A program made the translations under genes and the position numbers. From Heterodera schachtii (lineage: Eukaryota > Nematoda > Chromadorea > Rhabditida > Heteroderidae), in NCBI GenBank assembly GCA_023374025.1, contig SIJG01000015.1, forward strand, positions 49,497 through 113,496: 64,000 nt of DNA. The letters are read 5' to 3'. The notes below the pieces were generated by a model. The model saw only the letters and a list, made by a program, of their open reading frames with translations. It was not told where the DNA came from and made no database searches. Position 1 is the first letter of the stretch, and the number at the start of each line of letters is the position of its first letter. Positions 24,047 to 52,883 of the stretch are shown piece by piece.

Positions 24047-24394
24047 GTCAATGGCAACTCATACACAGGACAACTCGTACAAAAAAAATTTCTAAGAATT
24101 TTCAACGAAAACTTAGAATTTTTAGACAAAAAAAAACTAAGTGGATTTTTTAGCCTAGAAAAACTTTAAAAAAATTCTTGAAAGTTTTATTAATTTTTCA
24201 GCTGATTTTTTTAAATTTCTTAAATGTTTTAAAAAGTTTTTCTAGGCTAAAAAACCCATTTAGATTTTTTTAACTAAAAATTCTAAGTTTTACTTGAAAA
24301 TTCTTAGAAATTTTTGTACGAGTTGCCCTGTCTACGAGTTGCCTGTGTACGGGTTGCCTTTGTACGAGTTGCCTTTTGTACGAGTTGCCATGAC
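24047..24394. mobile_element. Foldback MITE with GGCAACTCGTAC-type ends
   Basis: Left end GTCAATGGCAACTC and right end GAGTTGCCATGAC are inverted. Inside, about 110 bp on each side pair again (GGACAACTCGTACAAAAA against TTTTTGTACGAGTTGCCC, and TTTTTAGCCTAGAAAAACTT against its complement). The right end has three further copies of the GTACGAGTTGCC word. Related copies sit in two introns, at 39257-39395 and 46757-46950. Confidence 0.65.
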
Positions 24395-35928: not shown

Positions 35929-36029
35929 ATGGCATCACCCGTCGAAAAAAAGAAAAAAATTTCCTATGAATACAACAGCAGCCTAATTGGTGAAAATCAG
36001 CAGAAAACGCTGGGTTCTTTTGTGCCATT
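35929..36029 (+). pseudogene. Interrupted N-terminal coding fragment
   Basis: ATG at 35929 opens MASPVEKKKKISYEYNSS and runs to about 36029, where the 387-bp tandem repeat starts and soon brings a stop. A related start (MAPSVEKKQKF) occurs at 55070, and both lose similarity after a GCCATTG word. It may be the original 5' end of the F-box-like gene resuming at 37021, because both are in the same frame modulo 3, or a separate gene head. Confidence 0.4.
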
Positions 36030-36071
36030 GAAACATATGAACGAGCGGGGAAGCTTTTGAGGGAAAAACTA

Positions 36072-36143
36072 TGGGGCGGGCCGGCTTTGAACCGGCGTCT
36101 CTGGCTTTCCGGACCAGTGTTCTACCAGCTGAACTACCGACCC
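36072..36143 (-). tRNA. tRNA-like gene, copy 1 (anticodon loop CCGGAAA)
   Basis: Read on the minus strand: acceptor GGGTCGG pairs with CCGCCCC with one T-C mismatch; D arm GTTC-AGCTGGTA-GAAC; anticodon stem CTGGT/GCCAG with loop CCGGAAA; short variable loop AGAC; T arm GCCGG-TTCAAAG-CCGGC; discriminator A. The loop geometry gives anticodon GGA (Ser), but a Ser tRNA should have a long variable arm and position 33 should be U, not C. It could be a mutated tRNA of another isotype, a SINE-type tRNA, or a pseudogene. Confidence 0.65.
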
Positions 36144-36458
36144 TGCCCTCTCCAGCTCCCCACTTTGCTCGACCATATAGGATCAATTGTTGCCTCAATT
36201 GATCCATTAATCTTCCTCTCGGGGAAGCTTCTTCTTCTCTATCTCATTCCGGACCTCTCTTATGGACGTCCTCGTCCATTTTCTGCTTCTCTGCGTCAGC
36301 TGCTGCTCGGCTGAAGGTTGCAGATTCGATCACTTCCAGTGCCAGCTTTATCCTCTCTCTTCTTTTTCGCTTCTCTGCTGCTGCTGGGTGAACTGGAAGC
36401 CGCCAAGGGTCGCCATGAAACATATGAACGAGCGGGGAAGCTTTTGAGGGAAAAACTA

Positions 36459-36530
36459 TGGGGCGGGCCGGCTTTGAACCGGCGTCTCTGGCTTTCCGGA
36501 CCAGTGTTCTACCAGCTGAACTACCGACCC
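36459..36530 (-). tRNA. tRNA-like gene, copy 2
   Basis: Identical to the copy at 36072-36143, one repeat unit (387 bp) further on. Confidence 0.65.
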
Positions 36531-36845
36531 TGCCCTCTCCAGCTCCCCACTTTGCTCGACCATATAGGATCAATTGTTGCCTCAATTGATCCATTAATCT
36601 TCCTCTCGGGGAAGCTTCTTCTTCTCTATCTCATTCCGGACCTCTCTTATGGACGTCCTCGTCCATTTTCTGCTTCTCTGCGTCAGCTGCTGCTCGGCTG
36701 AAGGTTGCAGATTCGATCACTTCCAGTGCCAGCTTTATCCTCTCTCTTCTTTTTCGCTTCTCTGCTGCTGCTGGGTGAACTGGAAGCCGCCAAGGGTCGC
36801 CATGAAACATATGAACGAGCGGGGAAGCTTTTGAGGGAAAAACTA

Positions 36846-36917
36846 TGGGGCGGGCCGGCTTTGAACCGGCGTCTCTGGCTTTCCGGACCAGTGTTCTACC
36901 AGCTGAACTACCGACCC
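36846..36917 (-). tRNA. tRNA-like gene, copy 3
   Basis: Identical to the copies at 36072 and 36459. It lies in the last, incomplete repeat unit. Confidence 0.65.
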
Positions 36918-37943
36918 TGCCCTCTCCAGCTCCCCACTTTGCTCGACCATATAGGATCAATTGTTGCCTCAATTTATCCATTAATCTTCCTCTCGGGGAA
37001 GCTTCTTCTTCTCTATCTCACCATCATCATTTGGAACCAAAAAGAAATGTCGTTTAAGGAAAATGTGAGCAAAATTTTTGCTTTTTTTTTTGATTGGGAA
37101 TTTTAATTTTTAACTCCGTTTAATTATTTTGTGATTTTTCAACAATTCCAGTTGGATTTGCACTGATGTGTGGATGGACATTCTGCCATTCTTTGATCGT
37201 GCTCAACTCTGCCTCAAATTGGCACTGCTTTCGCCCCGTTTTGATTGTTTGGTGGACACGCATTTCGACGGCGGCAAAAGCGATTTGACTCTTTGGCACC
37301 CAATCGCGATTCGTAAGGACCATTGCGCGGGAAAAGCAATGCTTTTTGCACACATCGATGCCAATTCTGAGCAATTTCCATTGCCCGACCGTCCGCTGCC
37401 CAACAAAATTCGCTTTTTTAAGCATCTTCACATTCAGTAATTCAATGATTGATTAAAATTTTTCTTAATTTAAGGCATAAAAGCATTCCATTTCAGGTAC
37501 ATTGACCATTCCGTCATCGCATTTCTCCGTGCCAACAAGCACATTTGGAACAGAGGCACCAAATTGGATTTGAATGTGAATTCACCTAAAATTTGGGATG
37601 TTTTGGCCCAACACATTTGGCCCATTTTTGTGCCAAACATACGTCATTTGCTCCTCCCTAATGGTGCGTATTTGGACAATTTGCGTCGTTTGATTTTGCC
37701 GACATTTCTCACTGATCTCAATCAATTGAATTCAATCGATTCCTGTGATCTGTTCCCCGGTGGGATTATCAGTGCTGCTGCTGCTGATGATGGACCAAAT
37801 GCAACTTCTGCTGGCCAAGCTTTGTCCAAATGGCTGCACAATCCAAGAAAAGATGGACAGCCCAAGCAATTGTGTTGCAGTTCTTATAATGAGTCCGAAG
37901 CAAAGGAATGGGTCAACAATTTCAAACAGGTCAAAATACCGTA

Positions 37944-40740: not shown

Positions 40741-41187
40741 TGAAATTAATATAAAAATATTTATTAATAATCTTATTAAGAGATGGGCATGGGATTTGCC
40801 GGGATCTCAGCATTCCGCAATTCCTTTCGCTTTAAGCAGGGCTCCCATCGTCCATTCTCTTATGCCGATCTGCATAAATAATTTTAAAAATTAATGGTCA
40901 ATTACGAAGATTTTTAAAACCAAAAAAATCGCTGAAAATTTTCGAAAATTTTTTTGGAAATTTTCTTAGCAAAAACCAATGTTTTTTCTTTTTATATTTC
41001 ATGCAATAAACTTTGTGCCGGTCTTACCTGGTGCCGTGTTCGGAACCGCATATGTTGTTCTCGTCGTTTGTCTTCGGCACAAAATTTGCATTTGTCATGT
41101 TTCCCCCAACGGCACCAAAAAAGCACGTACATTTCCAAAATCCGACTTTTCACCAAAAAATGCGGATTTTGAGATAATGTTTTTTGT
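40741..41187. other. Unrecognised stretch with a GC-richer island
   Basis: 41010-41150 is more GC-rich and open in several frames (for example SSFVFGTKFAFVMFPP), but no frame is clearly preferred and no family is recognised. Confidence 0.3.
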
Positions 41188-41197
41188 AAAAATCCAG

Positions 41198-41287
41198 GAA
41201 TTTATTATGGATCCGGACAAAGGATTGTATGACAGTGACGAGGACAAAGTGACATTGGCCATTGATTTAACGGTGGAAGAAAAATAG
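41198..41287 (+). pseudogene. Orphan terminal exon of a MATH gene
   Basis: Identical to the last exon of the BACK-MATH gene (46982-47071): an AATCCAG acceptor, then EFIMDPDKGLYDSDEDKVTL and a stop. No MATH exon precedes it here, so it is the tail of a lost or deleted neighbouring gene copy. Confidence 0.7.
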
Positions 41288-42211
41288 ACAAAGCGAAATT
41301 TGAAGAAATTGAATTTATTTTATCTTTATATTAATGGGTTTTCCATTAAATCGGACTGACTTTTTTAAATTTTATTTTTCAAATTTATATAATTACCAGG
41401 GCTGAAAATTTAATTTTGCTGACTATAAATGGCCTTAAAATGAGTTAAAAATGTTTGAAACTTTGTTTGAAACTTCTAACATTCATTTGTTTGTGACTTT
41501 TTTTGACTTTTTTAAAATGACGAAATTTTGCGATTTTTTTCTGAGAAAAACGAAGAGTTTCTTTTCGAGTTACACCTGGAAACGAAAATAAAGAAAAATT
41601 ACATACAAAAGTACAGATTTTATTGAATTTTTCAAAAATTTGGAGGCGGAGAAAAATGGGCATAAAAAATGATCAGCTAATCAATTGGTCCATTCAATAA
41701 AAATCTCCAAAATTGCCGATCATTTCTCTGTTTTATTTCACTTCAGCAGCACATTTCGACGGTTGAGAGAATGGCCTAAATAAGTGCAAATATTGAATTT
41801 GATGAACACTTTAGTAAAAAGCAAATTAATTAATTGATTTGAAACAAAATGCAAACATTTTTTAAATTTTCACTAAAAACATGAACAATACTGACGGAGG
41901 TCCCCCTTTAAAAAATTCAATTTTTTACAAGTTTATTTAGTGAATTTCAAGGTCGAACCGTAGAAGAGGATTCTGACATACATTTCCGGCCATTTTGAAC
42001 TCCGAATTCGAACAAAGTCGAAAATTCAAATGAAAAAAGAAACGAGTTTTTTGTTCGAGTTTGGGTTAGAATCTTTTCAGTAAATTTTTCAGAGGGGTCA
42101 AAATGAATGCCCAACAAATCTTTTGTCCTGATTTGACAGATTTGTCATTATTTTGAGATAGTGACCAAAATTATGCTTTTTGGCATTTCAAATTACTCAA
42201 TTCCAAGTTTT

Positions 42212-42385
42212 TTAATGCGAATTGTGTTGGGCAACGGACGGTCCGGCGGTATGATTGGTCGCCAAATTGTCAATTCTGTTTTGGCATCGAAATGCGTGTC
42301 CACCAAACCATCAAAACTGGCAAAAGCAGTGCCAAATTGAGACCAAGTTGAGGACGGCGAAAAGATGGGAAAATGTCCATCCAGC
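42212..42385 (-). pseudogene. F-box-like exon remnant (copy 1)
   Basis: The minus strand reads WMDIFPSFRRPQLGLNLALL, then continues in another frame as FDGLVDTHFDAKTELTIWRP and PDRPLPNTIR before a GT donor. It is exon 2 of the type-1 family with one frameshift. It sits head-to-head with a plus-strand C-terminal exon of the same family. Confidence 0.65.
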
Positions 42386-42729
42386 CCTTTGAATGCTCAA
42401 ATTCTTTTTGGGGAGAAAGATGAAAATATGGATGAGACGTCGGCGACGTTTGATTGGGAAAACTGCGAAAGTTCGGGTGCCAATTTGAACAATGTCCGTT
42501 TGTATTTGACTGACTTCCAAAATAGAATTGGGTAAGTGTAAGCATTGGGTCAGCAGCCATCAATGGCATTTGCCATTGCCAAATTTCTAAATTCCTTTTT
42601 CATCCAATTAAATTGCATTTAATTTTTAGGCCATTGTCTCCACCAGCAATCCACCAGCAAATAAAAGTGCCGAAAATGTGTGCTCGAGTGCCGCGGGGCG
42701 AAAAAGTGATTGATCAGCGCAATGAATGA
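42386..42729 (+). pseudogene. F-box-like C-terminal exons remnant (copy 1)
   Basis: A partial exon ending at 42531 (FDWENCESSGANLNNVRLYL) and a last exon at 42630-42729 (GPLSPPAIHQQ to DQRNE, stop). The FELVNERT part is missing, replaced by the inverted F-box exon upstream. It is a rearranged remnant and not a gene. Confidence 0.65.
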
Positions 42730-43069
42730 ATGAATGGATTATTATTTGAGAAATGATCAATCGATCCTTTTTTCTGGATACAATTTAAGCTTATGTTTTC
42801 TCTTTATGATGTTATATAAATAAAAAAAGAGTTTAAAAAATTTGAGGGGAAAAGTGGGAAATGTTGCTTTTTATACTTTTTCCTCACACTAATTTTTCCT
42901 CTATTCGTTGACACACCAAATTCAATGCTCGTTGACTGCCCTATATAAAGGGAACGGTTCAAAACATGACCACTAGACACTTTTGAAGTAGAAAAACAAA
43001 AAATTAATCAAAAAATTAGTATTGATTATATATTTCAATTTGGGAGGTCAATTTAGTAAATATTTCATA

Positions 43070-43536
43070 AATGTATTTTTAGCATCATCATCGCTTAGAG
43101 CCTAAGCATAGAGCCTAAGCCTAAGCATAGAGCCTAAGCTAGAGCCTAAGCTTGAGCCTAAGCCTAAGCTTAGAGCCTAAGCATAGAGCCTAAGCCTAAG
43201 CATAGAGCCTAAGCTAGAGCCTAAGCTTGAGCCTAAGCCTAAGCTTAGAGCCTAAGCCTAAGCATAGAGCCTAAGCTTGAGCCTAAGCCTAAGCTTAGAG
43301 CCTAAGCCTAAGCTTAGAGCCCAAGCCTAAGCTTAGGGCATAGCCTAGGCCTAAGCTTAGAGCCTAAGCCTAAAGCCTAGGCCTAAGCTTAGAGCCTAAG
43401 CCTAGAGCCTAGGCCTAAGCCTAAGCTTAGAGCCTAAGCCTAAGCTTAGAGCCTAAGCCTAGGCCTAAGCCTAAGCTTAGAGCCTAAGCCTAGGCCTAAG
43501 CTTAGAGCCTAAGCCTAGAGCCTAAGCCTAAGCTTT
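43070..43536 (+). repeat. Telomere-like GCCTAA array (half foldback)
   Basis: After the boundary word GCATCATCATCGCTTAGAGCC, about 450 bp consist of GCCTAA and AGCTTAGA units (for example GCCTAAGCCTAAGCTTAGA). GCCTAA is the complement of the nematode telomere hexamer TTAGGC. This matches the left arm of the large foldback at 48845, without the right arm. Confidence 0.9.
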
Positions 43537-43659
43537 CGAATTGAAGGTTGGAAGGACAGATTTAAATTCATATTTTAATATATATCCCCCTAATTTAAAA
43601 GGATCAATTTTTATTTTATTTTTTTGTATAATTTTGATAATTTAATTATATTTTTTAAG

Positions 43660-46600
43660 GATTTTGCCAACAAATGTCTGTCTTATATTTGTCAAAATGC
43701 GGCCCATTTGTTCAAGTCAGATGACTTTTTGGAAATTAATCAGAAAATCTTTTGTGTGCTTCTCGATCTTGATCGTTTGTTGCTAAGCAATGAATTTGAA
43801 ATTTGGAAAATTGTAATTTCGATTTTTTCTTTTTTTCATTTGCATTATAATTTTCGTTTTTTTTTCAAATTTAGACACTCCGTTGGGCCGATGAAAAATG
43901 TCGTCAGAATGGCATTGATGAATGCTCCTCGGATAATCGTCGTTCTGTACTTGGTCCGGCATTGTTCAAAATTCGTTTTCCAAATATGCTTGAGGAGGAT
44001 TTCTCAAAATTCGTTGGTAAAATCGGACAATAAAAAATTGAATTAAATTTTTACATTTTTTTTTGATGAAATTTTTTCAGTTCCATCTGGTCTGTTAACA
44101 ATGGAAGAAGTGCTTGGCATTTATCAGTTCAATTCCCATCCAAATCTTTCTCTTCGTGGAGTGCCGGAGCTGTACTCCTTGAAATTCCCAAGCCATGGAC
44201 GAATTTCGGATTGGAACACAGCCAAGCGGAACGGCAGAGGGACACTGGCGTTGAAAATTGAAAAAGTGTCGGAATTTGCGGGAAAGTCTGTCGGGGGTTA
44301 CCGACTCAGTGATACCGTATACATCAACGGATTGGCATGGAATATTCAAGCAGAAATCAGGGAAGGCACTGCTGCTGATGATGAGAAGAAATATTTGGGA
44401 TTTTTCTTATGGTATGAGCGAACAAAATACGGTACAACAATTTTAATTAAAAAAAATAAAAATTTAATTATTTTTTTTTTTTTTTACAATAATAGAAAAA
44501 CCTTTGAACTGCCTTTTTTCGGCAACATTTCGAATTGTATCGGAAAAAAACGAAACGGAGAATTCCATTGGGAAACTTTGTGATTATAACAATCAAATGA
44601 ACAGCAGTTGGGGATTTGGAAATTTCATTAGCTTTGAGGTGAGTGCCAAATTGTTTTCTTAATTTATATAATTAATAATTATGGCTAATTAAGGAAGTGG
44701 TCAACCCGATCAATGGTTATTATAACAGAGAAGAGGACAAAGTGACACTGACCATTGATGTCATGACTACTGTTGATGAACCAAAAATGGACAAATTCAT
44801 GTTGGATCAAAGCAAATCAAAAGGGACACTTTTTATGGAAATTGAAAAAGCGTCGGAATTTGCGCGAGAAGTCTTTGGAAGTGATCGAAAAAGTGAAACT
44901 GTGCACATCAACGGATTGCCATGGAAAATATTGGCAAAAATTACAATGCAAAATGGAAGCGTTTCCAATGAGAAATGGTTGGGCATTTACCTTTCGTGCG
45001 GTGCTCCAGAAAAAGGTGTAAATTAATTACCTACCAATTATTGCCTAATTGATAGCTTTAATTAATTGCCATTAAGATTTGCATTGGCGCTGCTTCGTTC
45101 GATCAGCAATTTTTCGAATTATTAATCGAAAAAATGGTGCTGAGAATTCCACTGTTGGGACACTTTGTGATCGTGTTTTTGACAACAATTCAACCAACAG
45201 GGGATTTCCTAATTTCATTTCTTTTGTGGTGAGTGACAATTAAACTGGCCCCCCTTAAATGATTCAATTAATGGACAATTAAGGAATTGATGGACCCGGA
45301 AAAAGGCTTTTACACCAAATGCGAAGACAAACTGACATTGACCATTGATGTCATCACTGTTGATGAGCCAAAAATGGACAAATTCATTTGGGATCAAAGC
45401 AAATCGGAAGGGACGCTTTTGATGGACATTGAAAAAGTGTCGGGATTTGCGATGGAAATCCTCGAGAGCGAACGTAAAAGTGAAACTATACAAATCAAAG
45501 GATTGCCATGGAAAATTTGGGCAGAAATAAATCAGCGGAAGGAAAGCAGTGACAATAATGAGAAATGGTTGGGCATTTACTTATGGTGCGATATGCCAAG
45601 AGAAGGTGCCAATTAAAAGTTATTTGCAGGGAAACGGATTTTTAGGTGCTAAAAATAACGCGAAATATGTACCTAAATAGTTGCTAAAAAAGTTGCCAAA
45701 AATTGGAAAAACATGTCAATAAATGTGTGAATTTTCCAAAATTTCCTCATCTTTGTCCTTTTCGGTTGCACAAATTGTAAATCAAACACATTTGAAGTTT
45801 TCGATCATCCGCCAAATCATGGCCAGGGTTTTTGCTTTTTGAAAATCGATTCTTAGGGGGGTGCATTTTTTGAAAAAAATTAATGCCGATTCTTAGGGGT
45901 GCATTTTGCTTTTTTAAAATAGGTGAAAAGCTAAAAATCCGTTCACTGGTTATTTGACAAATAAATTTAATTGAGTTTTTAAGACAAAAATTGGAGTTGC
46001 AAATGTTCGGCGATTCTTCGAATTGTTTCACAAATGGCGGATTACCGAAGAGAATTCAGTGACCAATTTTTTGACAATAAATCCAACAGCTGGGGATATG
46101 ACAATTTCATTTCATTTTCGGTGAGTGCCAATTCAAATAAATAAAATGCCAAATAAAAATTAAATGATTATTAATTAATAAGGAACTGATGGATCAGAGC
46201 AAAGCATTGGTCAACCAAAATGAGGACAAATTAACATTGGCCATCGATTTCACTGTAAATGAAGCAAATACGGAGCTTAAACCATTGGAATTTCAATGGC
46301 ATGGACGAATTTCTGATTGGATCATAGCCAATGCTAATTGGGGGACACTGACGATGAAAATTGAAAAATTTTCTGAATTTACGAAAAAAGTGGGAAATAG
46401 ACGGAACAGCGAAGCCGTGCAAATGAAGGGATTTGAGTGGAAAATATCGGCAGAAATAACAACGGATAAGGAAGACGGCACCGACAAATATTTGGGCTTT
46501 TATCTTTTGTGCTTCGCTCCGCCGAAAAATGGTGAAAATATGAGAAAATTTCTAATTGCATTCATTAATTTTTGATTGCTAAAGATGGCATTTGTTGGAG

Positions 46601-47071
46601 CTGCAAATGTTCGGCAACCCTTCGAATTGTTTCACAAAACAGCGGAACGGCGGATTTTACTCAAAAATTTGACAGAATTTTAAATAACAAAGCTAACAGC
46701 TGGGGCTTCCCAAAATTCACTTCTATGGTAAGTGTCACCAGTCAACTTTGTTTGGATCGATGGCAACAATCGTACACTGTTGTACAAAGGCAACTCGTAC
46801 AAAAAACAATTAAAGTTCTTAAAAGATAAAGCCTAAGCTTAAACCTAGGCCCGAGCAAGCCTAAGCTTAGGCCTAGCCTAAAGCCTCGGCTCGGCTTAAC
46901 CTAAAAAATTGTACGAGTTGCTTTTTGTACGAATTGGCATGATACACCACTTTCTTTGCTAATTTTTTTGTAAAAATCCAGGAATTTATTATGGATCCGG
47001 ACAAAGGATTGTATGACAGTGACGAGGACAAAGTGACATTGGCCATTGATTTAACGGTGGAAGAAAAATAG
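43660..47071 (+). CDS. BACK plus four tandem MATH domains (BTB end missing)
   Basis: Eleven exons: 43660-43812, 43875-44016, 44081-44431, 44496-44638, 44694-45015, 45077-45228, 45284-45605, 45984-46120, 46183-46531, 46585-46727 and 46982-47071. They sum to 2304 nt (767 residues) with all phases consistent. Residues 1-110 are BACK-like (DFANKCLSYICQNAAHLF, then TLRWADEKCRQNG, GPALFKIRFP, VPSGLLTMEEV). Four MATH units follow, each with KIEKVSEFA, a KSETV.I.GLPWKI-type strand, KWLGIYL, LRIVSQ and SNSWGY.NFISF blocks, and the next exon pair in the same phase. BTB-BACK-MATH proteins act as Cullin-3 adaptors that bind substrates through MATH. Here no BTB exon or start codon is found: the telomere-like array ends only 124 bp upstream. 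The gene is therefore 5'-truncated, or its first exons lie outside the window. Confidence 0.75.
46757..46950. mobile_element. GTACGAGTTGC MITE with telomere-like core, in a MATH intron
   Basis: ATGGCAACAATCGTACAC and GGCAACTCGTACAAAAA on the left are inverted to GTACGAGTTGC and GTACGAATTGGCAT on the right. The core is a short run of GCCTAAGC and TTAGGCCT words like the large arrays. The left copy of the flanking duplication (41188) lacks it, so it inserted separately. Confidence 0.6.
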
Positions 47072-47995
47072 ACAAAGCGAAATTTGAAGAAATTGAATTT
47101 ATTTTATCTTTATATTAATGGGTTTTCCATTAAATCGGACTGACTTTTTTAAATTTTATTTTTCAAATTTATATAATTACCAGGGCTGAAAATTTAATTT
47201 TGCTGACTATAAATGGCCTTAAAATGAGTTAAAAATGTTTGAAACTTTGTTTGAAACTTCTAACATTCATTTGTTTGTGACTTTTTTTGACTTTTTTAAA
47301 ATGACGAAATTTTGCGATTTTTTTCTGAGAAAAACGAAGAGTTTCTTTTCGAGTTACACCTGGAAACGAAAATAAAGAAAAATTACATACAAAAGTACAG
47401 ATTTTATTGAATTTTTCAAAAATTTGGAGGCGGAGAAAAATGGGCATAAAAAATGATCAGCTAATCAATTGGTCCATTCAATAAAAATCTCCAAAATTGC
47501 CGATCATTTCTCTGTTTTATTTCACTTCAGCAGCACATTTCGACGGTTGAGAGAATGGCCTAAATAAGTGCAAATATTGAATTTGATGAACACTTTAGTA
47601 AAAAGCAAATTAATTAATTGATTTGAAACAAAATGCAAACATTTTTTAAATTTTCACTAAAAACATGAACAATACTGACGGAGGTCCCCCTTTAAAAAAT
47701 TCAATTTTTTACAAGTTTATTTAGTGAATTTCAAGGTCGAACCGTAGAAGAGGATTCTGACATACATTTCCGGCCATTTTGAACTCCGAATTCGAACAAA
47801 GTCGAAAATTCAAATGAAAAAAGAAACGAGTTTTTTGTTCGAGTTTGGGTTAGAATCTTTTCAGTAAATTTTTCAGAGGGGTCAAAATGAATGCCCAACA
47901 AATCTTTTGTCCTGATTTGACAGATTTGTCATTATTTTGAGATAGTGACCAAAATTATGCTTTTTGGCATTTCAAATTACTCAATTCCAAGTTTT

Positions 47996-48169
47996 TTAAT
48001 GCGAATTGTGTTGGGCAACGGACGGTCCGGCGGTATGATTGGTCGCCAAATTGTCAATTCTGTTTTGGCATCGAAATGCGTGTCCACCAAACCATCAAAA
48101 CTGGCAAAAGCAGTGCCAAATTGAGACCAAGTTGAGGACGGCGAAAAGATGGGAAAATGTCCATCCAGC
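47996..48169 (-). pseudogene. F-box-like exon remnant (copy 2)
   Basis: Identical to 42212-42385, carrying the same frameshift, so the damage predates the duplication. Confidence 0.65.
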
Positions 48170-48513
48170 CCTTTGAATGCTCAAATTCTTTTTGGGGAGA
48201 AAGATGAAAATATGGATGAGACGTCGGCGACGTTTGATTGGGAAAACTGCGAAAGTTCGGGTGCCAATTTGAACAATGTCCGTTTGTATTTGACTGACTT
48301 CCAAAATAGAATTGGGTAAGTGTAAGCATTGGGTCAGCAGCCATCAATGGCATTTGCCATTGCCAAATTTCTAAATTCCTTTTTCATCCAATTAAATTGC
48401 ATTTAATTTTTAGGCCATTGTCTCCACCAGCAATCCACCAGCAAATAAAAGTGCCGAAAATGTGTGCTCGAGTGCCGCGGGGCGAAAAAGTGATTGATCA
48501 GCGCAATGAATGA
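48170..48513 (+). pseudogene. F-box-like C-terminal exons remnant (copy 2)
   Basis: Identical to 42386-42729: a partial exon ending at 48315 and a last exon at 48414-48513. Confidence 0.65.
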
Positions 48514-48844
48514 ATGAATGGATTATTATTTGAGAAATGATCAATCGATCCTTTTTTCTGGATACAATTTAAGCTTATGTTTTCTCTTTATGATGTTATA
48601 TAAATAAAAAAAGAGTTTAAAAAATTTGAGGGGAAAAGTGGGAAATGTTGCTTTTTATACTTTTTCCTCACACTAATTTTTCCTCTATTCGTTGACACAC
48701 CAAATTCAATGCTCGTTGACTGCCCTATATAAAGGGAACGGTTCAAAACATGACCACTAGACACTTTTGAAGTAGAAAAACAAAAAATTAATCAAAAAAT
48801 TAGTATTGATTATATATTTCAATTTGGGAGGTCAATTTAGTAAA

Positions 48845-50970
48845 TATTTCATAAATGTATTTTTAGCATCATCATCGCTTAGAGCCTAAGCATAAGCCTA
48901 AGCCTAAGCATAGAGCCTAAGCTAAGCCTAAGCTTGAGCCTAAGCCTAAGCTTAGAGCCTAAGCATAGAGCCTAAGCCTAAGCATAGAGCCTAAGCTAGA
49001 GCCTAAGCTTGAGCCTAAGCCTAAGCTTAGAGCCTAAGCCTAAGCATAGAGCCTAAGCTTGAGCCTAAGCCTAAGCTTAGAGCCTAAGCCTAAGCTTAGA
49101 GCCCAAGCCTAAGCTTAGGGCATAGCCTAGGCCTAAGCTTAGAGCCTAAGCCTAAGCTTAGAGCCCAAGCCTAAGCTTAGGGCATAGCCTAGGCCTAAGC
49201 TTAGAGCCTAAGCCTAAAGCCTAGGCCTAAGCTTAGAGCCTAAGCCTAGAGCCTAGGCCTAAGCCTAAGCTTAGAGCCTAAGCCTAAGCTTAGAGCCTAA
49301 GCCTAGGCCTAAGCCTAAGCTTAGAGCCTAAGCCTAGGCCTAAGCTTAGAGCCTAAGCCTAGAGCCTAAGCCTAAGCTTAGAGCCTAAGCCTAGGCCTAA
49401 GCTTAGAGCCTAAGCCTAAGCTTAGAGCCTAAGCCTAGAGCCTAAGCCTAGGCCTAAGCCTAAGCTTAGAGCCTAAGACTAGAGCCTAAGCTTAGAGCCT
49501 AAGCCTAGGCCTAAGCTTAGAGCCTAAGCCTAGGCCTAATCTTAGAGCCTAAGCCTAAGCTTAGAGCCTAAGCCTAAACTTAGAGCCTAAGCTTAGAGCC
49601 TAAGCCTAAGCCTATGCTACCGAATTGCTTTAGGATTTATGGAGCTATAGCTTGTACATGTAAAATCATATTTGGTAGAAGTTTGATGATTAAAAATTTA
49701 TTTTCTAGCGTATTCAAGTCGAATTGCCCTAGGCTTAGGCTTTAGGCTTATGTTCTAAGCTTAGGCCTAGGCTTAGGCTTAGGCTCTAAGCTTAGGCTTA
49801 GGCCTAGTCTTAGGCTCTAGGCTTAGGCTCTAAGCTTAGGCCTAGGCTTAGGCTCTAGGCTTAGGCTCTAAGCTTAGGCCTAGGCTTAGGCTCTAGGCTT
49901 AGGCTCTAAGCTTAGGCTCTAGGCTTAGGCTCTAAGCTTAGGCTCTAGGCTTAGGCTCTAAGCTTAGGCTTAGGCTTAGGCTCCAAGCTTAGGCTTAGGC
50001 TCTAGGCTTAGGCTCTAAGCTTAGGCCTAGGCTTAGGCTCTAAGCTTAGGCTTAGGCCTAGGCTTAGGCTCTAAGCTTAGGCCTAGGCTTAGGCTCTAAG
50101 CTTACGTTTAGGCTCTAGGCTTAGGCATAGGCTTTAGGCTTAGGCTCTAAGCTTAGGCTCTAAGCTTAGGCTTAGGCTTAGGCTCTAAGCTTAGGCTTAG
50201 GCTCTAGGCTTAGGCTCTAAGCTTAGGCCTAGGCTTAGGCTCTAAGCTTACGTTTAGGCTCTAGGCTTAGGCTCTAAGCTTAGGCCTAGGCTTAGGCTCT
50301 AAGCTTACGTTTAGGCTCTAGGCTTAGGCATAGGCTTTAGGCTTAGGCTCTAAGCTTAGGCTTAGGCTCTAGGCTTTAGGCTTAGGCCCTAAGCTTAGGC
50401 TTAGGCTCTACTTACGTTTAGGCTCTAGGCTTAGGCATAGGCTTTAGGCTTAGGCTCTAAGCTTAGGCTTAGGCTCTAAACTTAGGCTCTAGGCTTTAGG
50501 CTTAGGCCCTAAGCTTAGGCTTAGGCCCTAAGCTTAGGCCTAGGCTCTAAGCTTAGGCTTAGGCTCTAAGCTTAGGCTCTATGCTTAGGCCTAGGCTTAG
50601 TCTTTTGGCTCTAAGCTTAGGCCTAGGCTTAGGCTCTAAGCTTAGGCTTAGGCCTAGGCTTAGGCTCTAAGCTTAGGCCTAGGCTTAGGCTCTAAGCTTA
50701 GGCTTAGGCTCTAGGCTTAGGCATAGGCTTTAGGCTTAGGCTCTAAGCTTAGGCCTAGGCTTAGGCTCTAAGCTTAGGCTCTAAGCTTTAGGCTTAGGCC
50801 CTAAGCTTAGGCTTAGGCTCTAGGCTTTAGGCTTAGGCCCTAAGCTTAGGCTTAGGCTCTAAGCTTAGGCTTAGGCTCTAAGCTTAGGCTCTATGCTTAG
50901 GCCTAGGCTTAGTCTTTTGGCTCTAAGCGATGATGATGCCAAAAATACATTTATGAAATATTTAATAGTA
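48845..50970. mobile_element. 2.1-kb foldback element with telomere-like repeat arms
   Basis: The outer ends are a unique inverted repeat: ATTTCATAAATGTATTTTTA..GCATCATCATCGCTTAGAGCC on the left and GGCTCTAAGCGATGATGATGCC..AAATACATTTATGAAAT on the right. The left arm (48875-49615) is GCCTAA/AGCTTAGA repeats. The right arm (49730-50930) is the reverse orientation, TTAGGC/TCTAAGC. A centre of about 110 bp (49616-49729) is unique. The arms could pair over hundreds of bases as DNA or RNA. No protein is encoded, and no target duplication could be made out. Confidence 0.85.
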
Positions 50971-52883
50971 CATTTCTTACTAATTCACTCAAAAATGAAG
51001 TGTTTTTTTAAATTTCAAATGCTGATAAAAAAATTTTCAACATATCTCGCCATTTTTTTAAATATTTTTTCGTGAATAATATTCAATATTAAGCAGTTTT
51101 GTAACAAATTCATTTCATTTCTTGTTGGGGCTGAGTTCAATTCTTACTCTGTCCTGTTTGAAGATTTTTTATTTTTCAAAAAAAATTACCAAAAATCGTA
51201 AAAAAACATTACAGCCCATAGGTCCATGGGAAGTCGTTATCCATGGTGTATATCTGTTTGCTATTCTTTACTGTTTTCTATTAATTTATTGTAAAAATTT
51301 CAAAAATGTGGAAACATTCAATCATTTAAAAACGGTGACGTTTTATGAAATATCTTTTGAAAAAAATGATCATTTTTTTTCGAAAAAATGGCTATAATCT
51401 CCACCCCCACTCATGTTTTTTCTGGTTATGGACTGCCTTTTTTTCTCAACTAAATTGTCCACACTGAAATGACGCAGTCCGAATTGATTGATTGAACGCA
51501 TAAACAGCAGAAATAGAAGAGTACAAAAAGCAAACAATGTTTTTAAACATCTCCGAATGTTTTTCCCAAAAATATGCTTTTTGGTGAATTACACATTCTG
51601 CTGTTTCAAAATTGCTTTTGCTGCATTAGTAATTATTGTATTATGTTCTTGCTCTCTCTAATTTTCTCTAATTAAATTCATTTAAAAAATTTGATTTTTT
51701 CTCCCATTTTTAGGCTTTTTCCAATGCTTCTTCTCCGCTTTCTCTCCACTTTTTGCTTCACTTTTGTCTGTCCTTTCCACTTGACTTCGTTGTGCCATTT
51801 GATCACTTTTTTATTGATCAGAGACGGCGCGGCGCATTCATTCCGATGCCGGCGAATTTTGCTGAAAATGTCATTAAATATGTTCTTTTGCTCTCTCATT
51901 TTCAAATTGTCTCTATTTTAAGTTAACAACAGATTTTTTTGCCATTTGTGACACAACACAAAACAATTGGAAAAAAACGGGAAAAGTGTGCTAATTGAAC
52001 AATAAAAAAGAACAGAGGGTAAGGAATTACTTAAAAATTAGAAATTTTTATTTATTTTCAACATTTTTTTGATTAACAAGCCTCTGTTCGAGAAAAAAAT
52101 TTCAATTTTTTACTGGAGAAATTTATTTCATTTTTTTAGAAATTTTCATTTATTGGCAACTTTTTTTTTTGTGATTAATAGGGATGGGATTTTTAGTGAT
52201 AAAAAATCCCAAAATAATTAACTAAATAGTGACAAAAAAATGCCAAAATAGTGGCAAAAATAGTGGCGAAAAAGTTCCAAATTTAGGGATGTAATTTTTT
52301 AAATAGCTGTTTTTTAATTTGTAAATAATTTAAAATTAAGGCAAACAATTTTATTACTGATTGCAGTTGCAAAATATTTTCTTAGCAAATATTGAGCAAG
52401 AAAAAAAATTGGGGAAGAATTTTTGTGAAATTTTTCTAATTCTTAGGGGTGTATTTTTGAAAATTTTTAGGTCGATTCTTAGGGGTGTATTTTTTGAAAA
52501 GTTTTTAGGTCGATTCTTAGGGGTGTATTTTTCGTTTTTATTACATTTTTTTGGGGAAATTTTCCAAAAAATGCCAAAATAGTGGCAAAAATAATGACGA
52601 AACGCCAAAATAGTGGCAAAAAATTATTTTAGTGGCCAACTTCCAAAATAGTTTTTTTTTAGTGGCGAAGCTCCAAAATAGTGATTTCTAGTGATGAATA
52701 GTGGCACTAAAAACGAAAAATTTTCGAAAAAGAATGTGTTTTTCGTGCATTTCTCGTCAAATTTATTTCGTTTTTTTTTGTCCGAGCCTCGGTAAACAAT
52801 TAATTTTTTAGCTGATTGACCTTCATAGCATTATTTTAATTGAAAATTTGCTAATTTTTAACTGAGTTTTTTGTGTTTTTCAG
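50971..52883. other. Intergenic stretch with low-complexity repeats
   Basis: A minus-strand frame at 51905-51678 (MKMREQKNIFNDIFSKIRRH, Lys/Arg-rich after) could be a small exon but is unrecognised. 52190-52730 is made of AAAATAGTGGCAAAAA words and a direct triplet of TTCTTAGGGGTGTATTTTT, the reverse of the 23460-23770 family. Confidence 0.35.

Follow-up and report, generated by a model that had tools for sequence, protein, structure and literature searches.

How does the interior of a nematode contig come to hold two long arrays of telomere-like repeats that face each other across a short centre and end, on both outer sides, in the same sequence? Nematodes are well known to carry interstitial telomere sequences, and foldback inversion is a known type of event; a structure of this shape could be read as a mobile element, as a fragment that once received telomere repeats, as a source of hairpin RNA, as an assembly error, or as the product of a local inverted duplication. 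We have approached this question in Heterodera schachtii with a window of 64,000 nucleotides (contig C15:49497-113496), searching the parts of the locus against the whole genome assembly of 178,491,932 bp in 356 contigs. Positions given without a contig name are those of the window.

Anatomy of the inverted arrays

The foldback structure is real, and its parts are collected in Table 1. On C15, a contig of 2,337,963 bp, it occupies 98.3-100.5 kb, so that this TTAGGC-type tract is internal and away from the contig ends. The initial annotation had described arms of opposite-facing telomere-like units, enclosed by a matching, non-repetitive inverted boundary and separated by about 110 bp, with regular AAGCTT insertions, and our measurements bear out each of these points, including its coordinates, at which the boundary pair encloses both arms. 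The inverted boundary is 46 bp long with a single mismatch, its first 38 bases being non-array sequence, and the centre measures 114 bp. The left arm contains 64 GCCTAA and no TTAGGC, the right arm 102 TTAGGC and no GCCTAA, while AAGCTT occurs 25 and 37 times, respectively. Judged from these counts rather than against shuffled sequence, so strict a strand split over some 1.9 kb would be far from chance.

Two of the words that recur in the arms are self-complementary: CTAAGCTTAG, found 22 times in the left arm and 32 times in the right, and TAGGCCTA, found 10 and 16 times. Reading frames contribute little to the element, as only two in the stop-to-stop list (at least 45 aa) touch it, of 53 and 66 aa, each running across the end of an arm. 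Throughout, we use the term telomere-like as a description of the repeat unit only. We also agree with the annotation that a simple telomere scar cannot explain boundaries that match on both sides.

Table 1. Features of the inverted arrays, their surroundings and the upstream duplicate, in window positions
Feature	Position	Strand	Details
Segmental duplicate of 46960-49322	41175..43535	+	98.8% overall; terminates within the array or at its edge
One-armed copy, left boundary and 441-bp array	43056..43535	+	array 43095-43535; joined to the stretch ahead of the BACK/MATH-like gene
Other copy of the segmental duplication	46960..49322	+	98.8% overall against 41175-43535
Left boundary inverted repeat	48841..48886	+	38 bp non-array and first array bases; 45/46 against 50964-50919
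Left arm, GCCTAA/AAGCTTAGAGCC array	48879..49614	+	736 bp; TRF array 48883-49614
Near-identical arm stretch, 137 bp	49282..49418	+	inverted partner 49946-50082, at most 2 mismatches
Centre, truncated copy of dispersed repeat X	49615..49728	+	114 bp; X homology to ~49714, then short joint before right arm
Right arm, TTAGGC/CTAAGCTT array	49729..50929	-	1,201 bp; TRF array 49730-50912
Right boundary inverted repeat	50919..50964	-	pairs with 48841-48886, 45/46
Dispersed repeat R, approximate limits	50941..51147	+	contains the R-derived 24 bp of the boundary

Dispersed repeats, arm similarity and an upstream duplicate

A DNA search with the left flank and boundary returned three matches in the genome: both boundaries of this locus and, 5.8 kb upstream, a further left boundary. 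The pattern of the array edge, with up to 3 mismatches, was found in the same three places only. The A+T-rich half of the boundary, taken as a 24-base pattern, matched 96 places when up to 3 mismatches were allowed (44 forward and 52 reverse; reversed control, 19 and 31). Only three of these are exact, all at this locus or its duplicate, and the others, where listed, carry 2 or 3 mismatches; no array was present within a 3-kb stretch around any of the 27 examined among the 93 inexact matches.

A genome search with the right flank produced 23 matches. Three are the flank itself and the two left boundaries; the other 20 belong to the dispersed repeat R. We examined 13 of these 20, and 12 are free of arrays, the exception being a copy on C122. 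The R-derived 24 bp of the boundary are covered by 8 of the 12 array-free copies; 4 of the 12 extend at least 35 bp beyond the point of the array joint (one of them being the source of the R query), and 4 start further in. Judged by these alignments, the boundary is inner sequence of R, interrupted by the array. Because the right boundary belongs to R and array-free copies of R run through the boundary, the left one is most readily taken as a short reversed copy of the array-R edge, cut off early. On the right side R goes on, whereas on the left it breaks off after the 24 R-derived bp; the inverted copy stops abruptly while its source extends further. The copy on C122 carries a 56-bp, 79% match to the left-flank gene, then a TTAGGC array of ~130 bp and then R, and its alignment with the right arm crosses the array-R joint (79% over 276 columns). 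We take this as a one-armed counterpart of the C15 element.

Counting itself, the centre matches 15 places in the genome, and by alignment it represents a second dispersed repeat, X, in truncated form. Among the 10 of these 15 copies that we examined, the array ends at the same point of X in four (the C15 element, two copies at C10 and one at C13), and in six distant copies the repeat passes through this point with no array. In the C15 element, the word CGAATTGC adjoins both array joints of the centre. The common array-X joint at C10, C13 and C15 points to shared descent of the joint; because it recurs at C10 and C13, the order of events (array joined to X and then inverted, or inverted and then copied elsewhere) is not fixed.

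The two arms, unequal in length, are ~84-87% alike in long BLAST alignments. Their 137-bp ungapped stretch of near identity includes 98 bp that are perfect and sits almost symmetrically, its distance to the inner end being 196 bp in the left arm and 217 bp in the right, and a 144-bp inter-arm pair is 98% complementary. By comparison, nine array segments of seven other loci share no ungapped stretch (up to 2 mismatches) longer than 78 bp with either arm, setting aside the 43-kb duplicate, which matches the left arm over 257 bp. As the segments from other loci are shorter (144-285 bp), overlapping 250-bp pieces of the arms (step 50) served as a size-matched control: 12 of 20 right-arm pieces and 5 of 10 left-arm pieces (17 of 30 in total) share more than 78 bp with the opposite arm, the remaining 13 sharing 78 bp or less. 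Thus, the 43-kb duplicate apart, each arm has its longest near-identical stretch in the other arm, and by this measure the two are each other's closest relatives. Sharing of 25-mers does not show the same: scaled to the smaller set, a measure that favours short arrays, the right arm shares 0.27 with the left arm, 0.45 with the array at C50 and 0.44 and 0.39 with those at C20.

The second left boundary lies in a 2.4-kb segmental duplication that covers the left flank and extends into the left arm. Its non-array part differs by one gap and no mismatches in 1,918 columns, and because the inverted boundary has one mismatch in 38 bp against none in these columns, the inversion is suggested, weakly, to be older than the duplication; its age is poorly bounded, since just one mismatch in 38 bp is available. 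The array seems to have acted as a breakpoint a second time, because the duplication ends in the array or at its edge and is joined there to the stretch ahead of a BACK/MATH-like gene.

That gene (43594-46820) starts right after the truncated array copy and comprises a BACK exon (E 3e-6) and MATH-like exons (E 0.0014, below the Pfam cut-off); among translated frames of at least 45 aa, no BTB exon was recognised between the array and BACK. The MATH-type exon of the window has only two protein matches, one in Heterodera trifolii at 60% identity and one in Heterodera schachtii at 71% over 42% of the query. Another gene, with an exon at ~48125-48316, has partial matches ~0.1-0.5 kb from telomere-like arrays at C122, C50 and C39, in either orientation.

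The window contains further repeats. A small telomere-like array (46831-46881) lies between inverted TTGTACGAGTTGC motifs at 46789-46938; the motif is a dispersed minisatellite with 629 matches, and it also occurs at 24314-24389. Because this motif, as GTACGAGTTGCC, also sits in the centres of other palindromes, we considered it as a shared border of arrays, and rejected it on account of its dispersed occurrence: allowing up to 3 mismatches, 313 of its matches are forward and 316 reverse, whereas the control had none in either direction. A tandem 387-bp unit is present in 2.6 copies, 99% alike, at 36024-37020, and a frame at 38590-38940 matches Tox-GHH below threshold (E 0.037; 14.4 bits, the cut-off being 25), probably by chance.

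Origin of the inverted pair

We propose that the locus probably arose through a local inverted duplication at a degenerate interstitial minisatellite of telomere-like units, and not through the jump of a mobile element. A break or a stalled fork in or beside the array would let a strand fold back, aided by the many self-complementary words of the array. Synthesis would then produce an inverted copy of the array and of a short part of R, stopping there; X would form the loop, and the left flank would receive the new end. The arms would subsequently change in length through ordinary tandem-repeat turnover and, probably later, an upstream duplicate would have been made of the left flank and the adjoining portion of the left arm, with a breakpoint in the array or at its edge. 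The anatomy can be read directly from the locus; the priming step is proposed by analogy with yeast, in which foldback-primed inverted duplication has been described (PMC10622511).

The confinement of the boundary repeat to this locus and its duplicate supports a local inversion. Moreover, each arm by itself has a better predicted fold than its shuffled versions (z -8.0 and -7.3, with -0.5 for a flank control; 20 shuffles each, the right arm being represented by its first 740 bases), which makes the foldback plausible, though unproven. Some observations count against this reading, among them the 25-mer values and the 13 size-matched pieces that stay within 78 bp. The array-X unit exists elsewhere, in both C10 copies and at C13, so the left arm could have come with X. 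One of the C10 arrays is nearer to that of C13 (177 bp) than to its own partner (121 bp), and neighbouring arrays at C30 lie in the same orientation.

The initial annotation had drawn a different conclusion from the shape, that of a mobile foldback element that had adopted telomere-like repeats, and had proposed to look for further boundary copies, empty sites and target duplications. The shape indeed fits a non-autonomous foldback transposon whose terminal inverted repeats were enlarged by telomere-like units: the inverted ends consist of tandem units, the arms are unequal and a distinct centre separates them, and foldback-like Tm1 elements with ~14-bp tandem units in their ends are described in root-knot nematodes (PMC3169594). 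However, searches of this genome with the left flank, the boundary (two pieces, up to 3 mismatches) and the right flank led us to reject the idea, since no further copy has this terminus apart from the duplicated left flank, the terminus itself is inner sequence of R, and the element has no long reading frame. No empty site was found in this genome either, as the only match of the 80-bp left flank is its duplicate and the right-flank matches are partial copies of R. The longest exact direct repeat at the borders is AAATATTT, of 8 bp, a length reached by 57 of 1,000 random pairs; as a target duplication it is uninformative, being a self-complementary word within both boundary copies that the inverted repeat brings about by itself. 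Outside the boundary palindrome, the longest is TAGTA, whose 5 bp are reached by 597 of 1,000 random pairs, and the border pair TAGTAAAT/TAGTACAT is 8 bp long with one mismatch; no informative target duplication stands above chance. Shape apart, then, the testable features that define a transposon family were not found in this genome, and because the full boundary occurs only at this locus and its duplicate, no informative target duplication exceeds chance and the boundary is part of R, we regard a mobile origin as quite unlikely.

A DNA fragment that was given telomere repeats at both ends and then inserted would account for other aspects of the locus. Read outward from the centre, both arms have the true telomere polarity, with TTAGGC towards the outside, and the same CGAATTGC word stands at both joints of the centre; but this history leaves the inverted R fragment at both outer ends unexplained, the units are mixed rather than plain TTAGGC, and the arms at C10 point the opposite way, which together make it very unlikely. 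Foldback artefacts of long reads have been described (PMC12870357), and an inverted join created by sequencing or assembly would mimic the structure. This concern is weakened by arms that are neither equal nor identical, and the non-palindromic centre, the differing outer flanks and the mismatch within the boundary also speak against an artefact, which we consider highly improbable. The possibility of a hairpin-RNA locus, also raised by the annotation, concerns function and is compatible with a local inverted duplication: a transcribed palindrome would give long double-stranded RNA and feed small-RNA silencing. Such a hairpin is physically possible, with a predicted fold of the plus strand at 48838-50965 of -1678.5 kcal/mol and 724 arm-to-arm pairs (raw values, not scaled to shuffled sequence), and a TATA-like word, CCCTATATAAAGGG, ~115 bp upstream is a candidate promoter. 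Yet a comparable fold is expected of any long inverted repeat, and we hold a silencing role to be very doubtful.

Other arrays in the genome and comparison with known systems

A 23-mer of the C15 unit, searched with up to one mismatch, has 111 matches, and the 100 of these that were listed group into at least 13 loci, 3 of 13 (C10, C15 and C20) having both orientations, in two separate blocks each. The inverted stretches within loci measure 121 bp at C10 and 149 bp at C20; with these two also being inverted pairs, such arrays may be recurrent foldback sites. In a set of 20 array loci, mostly best-scoring matches rather than a random sample, blocks of both orientations were found in 8 (C10, C20, C136, C7, C30, C170, C45 and C21), and the other 12 have one orientation only, bar a few opposite words from self-complementary units.

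The last six of these eight loci carry another GCCTA-type unit and have flanks in common, and the two that were compared with the C15 arms, C136 and C7, share almost no 17-mers with them. In all six, the unit forms the centre of long palindromes. Their flanks gave 16 matches on 8 contigs, with inverted pairs at C45, C7, C30, C21 and C136 and up to 100% identity over 300 bp, and the palindrome arms at C7 match at 99.6% over 2.2 kb. Frames in these flanks have a weak Pox_A32 match (E 0.013, below the cut-off) and six database relatives, two of them from Globodera and one carrying PF04665. From these matches the flanks look virus- or Maverick-like, and a mobile foldback with telomere-like repeats describes these loci better than it does the C15 element.

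Short arrays also occur inside other sequences. On C5, C135 and C20, three copies of another dispersed repeat carry, by eye, a ~50-60 bp array of the C15 unit at the same place, which could be a route by which arrays are seeded. At C11:1-400, the start of the contig consists, again by eye, of tandem units of ~95 bp, which may be a satellite or an end repeat. In a genome search, perfect (TTAGGC)5 occurred only at C2:1187265-1187366 and C56:956874-956993, both internal. None of the 15 readable contig ends among 16 sampled carries TTAGGC, and one has a single GCCTAA. A search for telomerase with PF12009 had no match anywhere, and its controls were likewise without a match, so that it carries no information. 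The TTAGGC telomere repeat is reported to be conserved in most of clade IV (PMC10844300).

It is tempting to speculate more widely, although we consider the following possible rather than probable: that cyst-nematode arrays with self-complementary words of 8-10 bp are recurrent foldback sites, as at C15, C10, C20 and the six GCCTA-type loci in virus-like sequence, and at the same time breakpoints at which members of expanded gene families are copied and truncated. Should telomere-like arrays indeed give rise to inverted duplications, they would generate structural change beside gene families in crop parasites and offer a natural test bed for how foldback inversions begin. In addition, the locus illustrates that an inverted duplication can mimic a foldback transposon when its edge falls in a dispersed repeat. 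In the open PMC literature that we searched, we found no description of inverted telomere-like arrays in Heterodera.

Among known systems, the foldback inversions of yeast (PMC10622511) resemble the C15 element in having an inverted copy beside its source, a loop between the two and a non-homologous far joint. They differ in that the H. schachtii arms are a tandem array and that the event is deduced here from sequence, not observed. The Tm1 elements of root-knot nematodes share the long inverted ends of tandem units in variable number; these Mutator/Foldback transposons have defined end motifs, many copies and, in 45 of 53 complete copies, target duplications of 8-10 bp (PMC3169594), whereas the C15 element shows neither a detected target duplication nor further copies in this genome. 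The interstitial telomere tracts of nematodes, of which 1,229 are cited for C. elegans in PMC9071541, are likewise degenerate TTAGGC-type tracts within chromosomes and numerous in each genome. The C15 arrays, for their part, are long, have regular AAGCTTAGA words and form two strictly inverted arms. Finally, the C. elegans TALT sequences (PMC4595603) also place a block of other sequence between telomere-like tracts; the tracts of TALT1 run in the same orientation, whereas the two arms of the C15 element are inverted.
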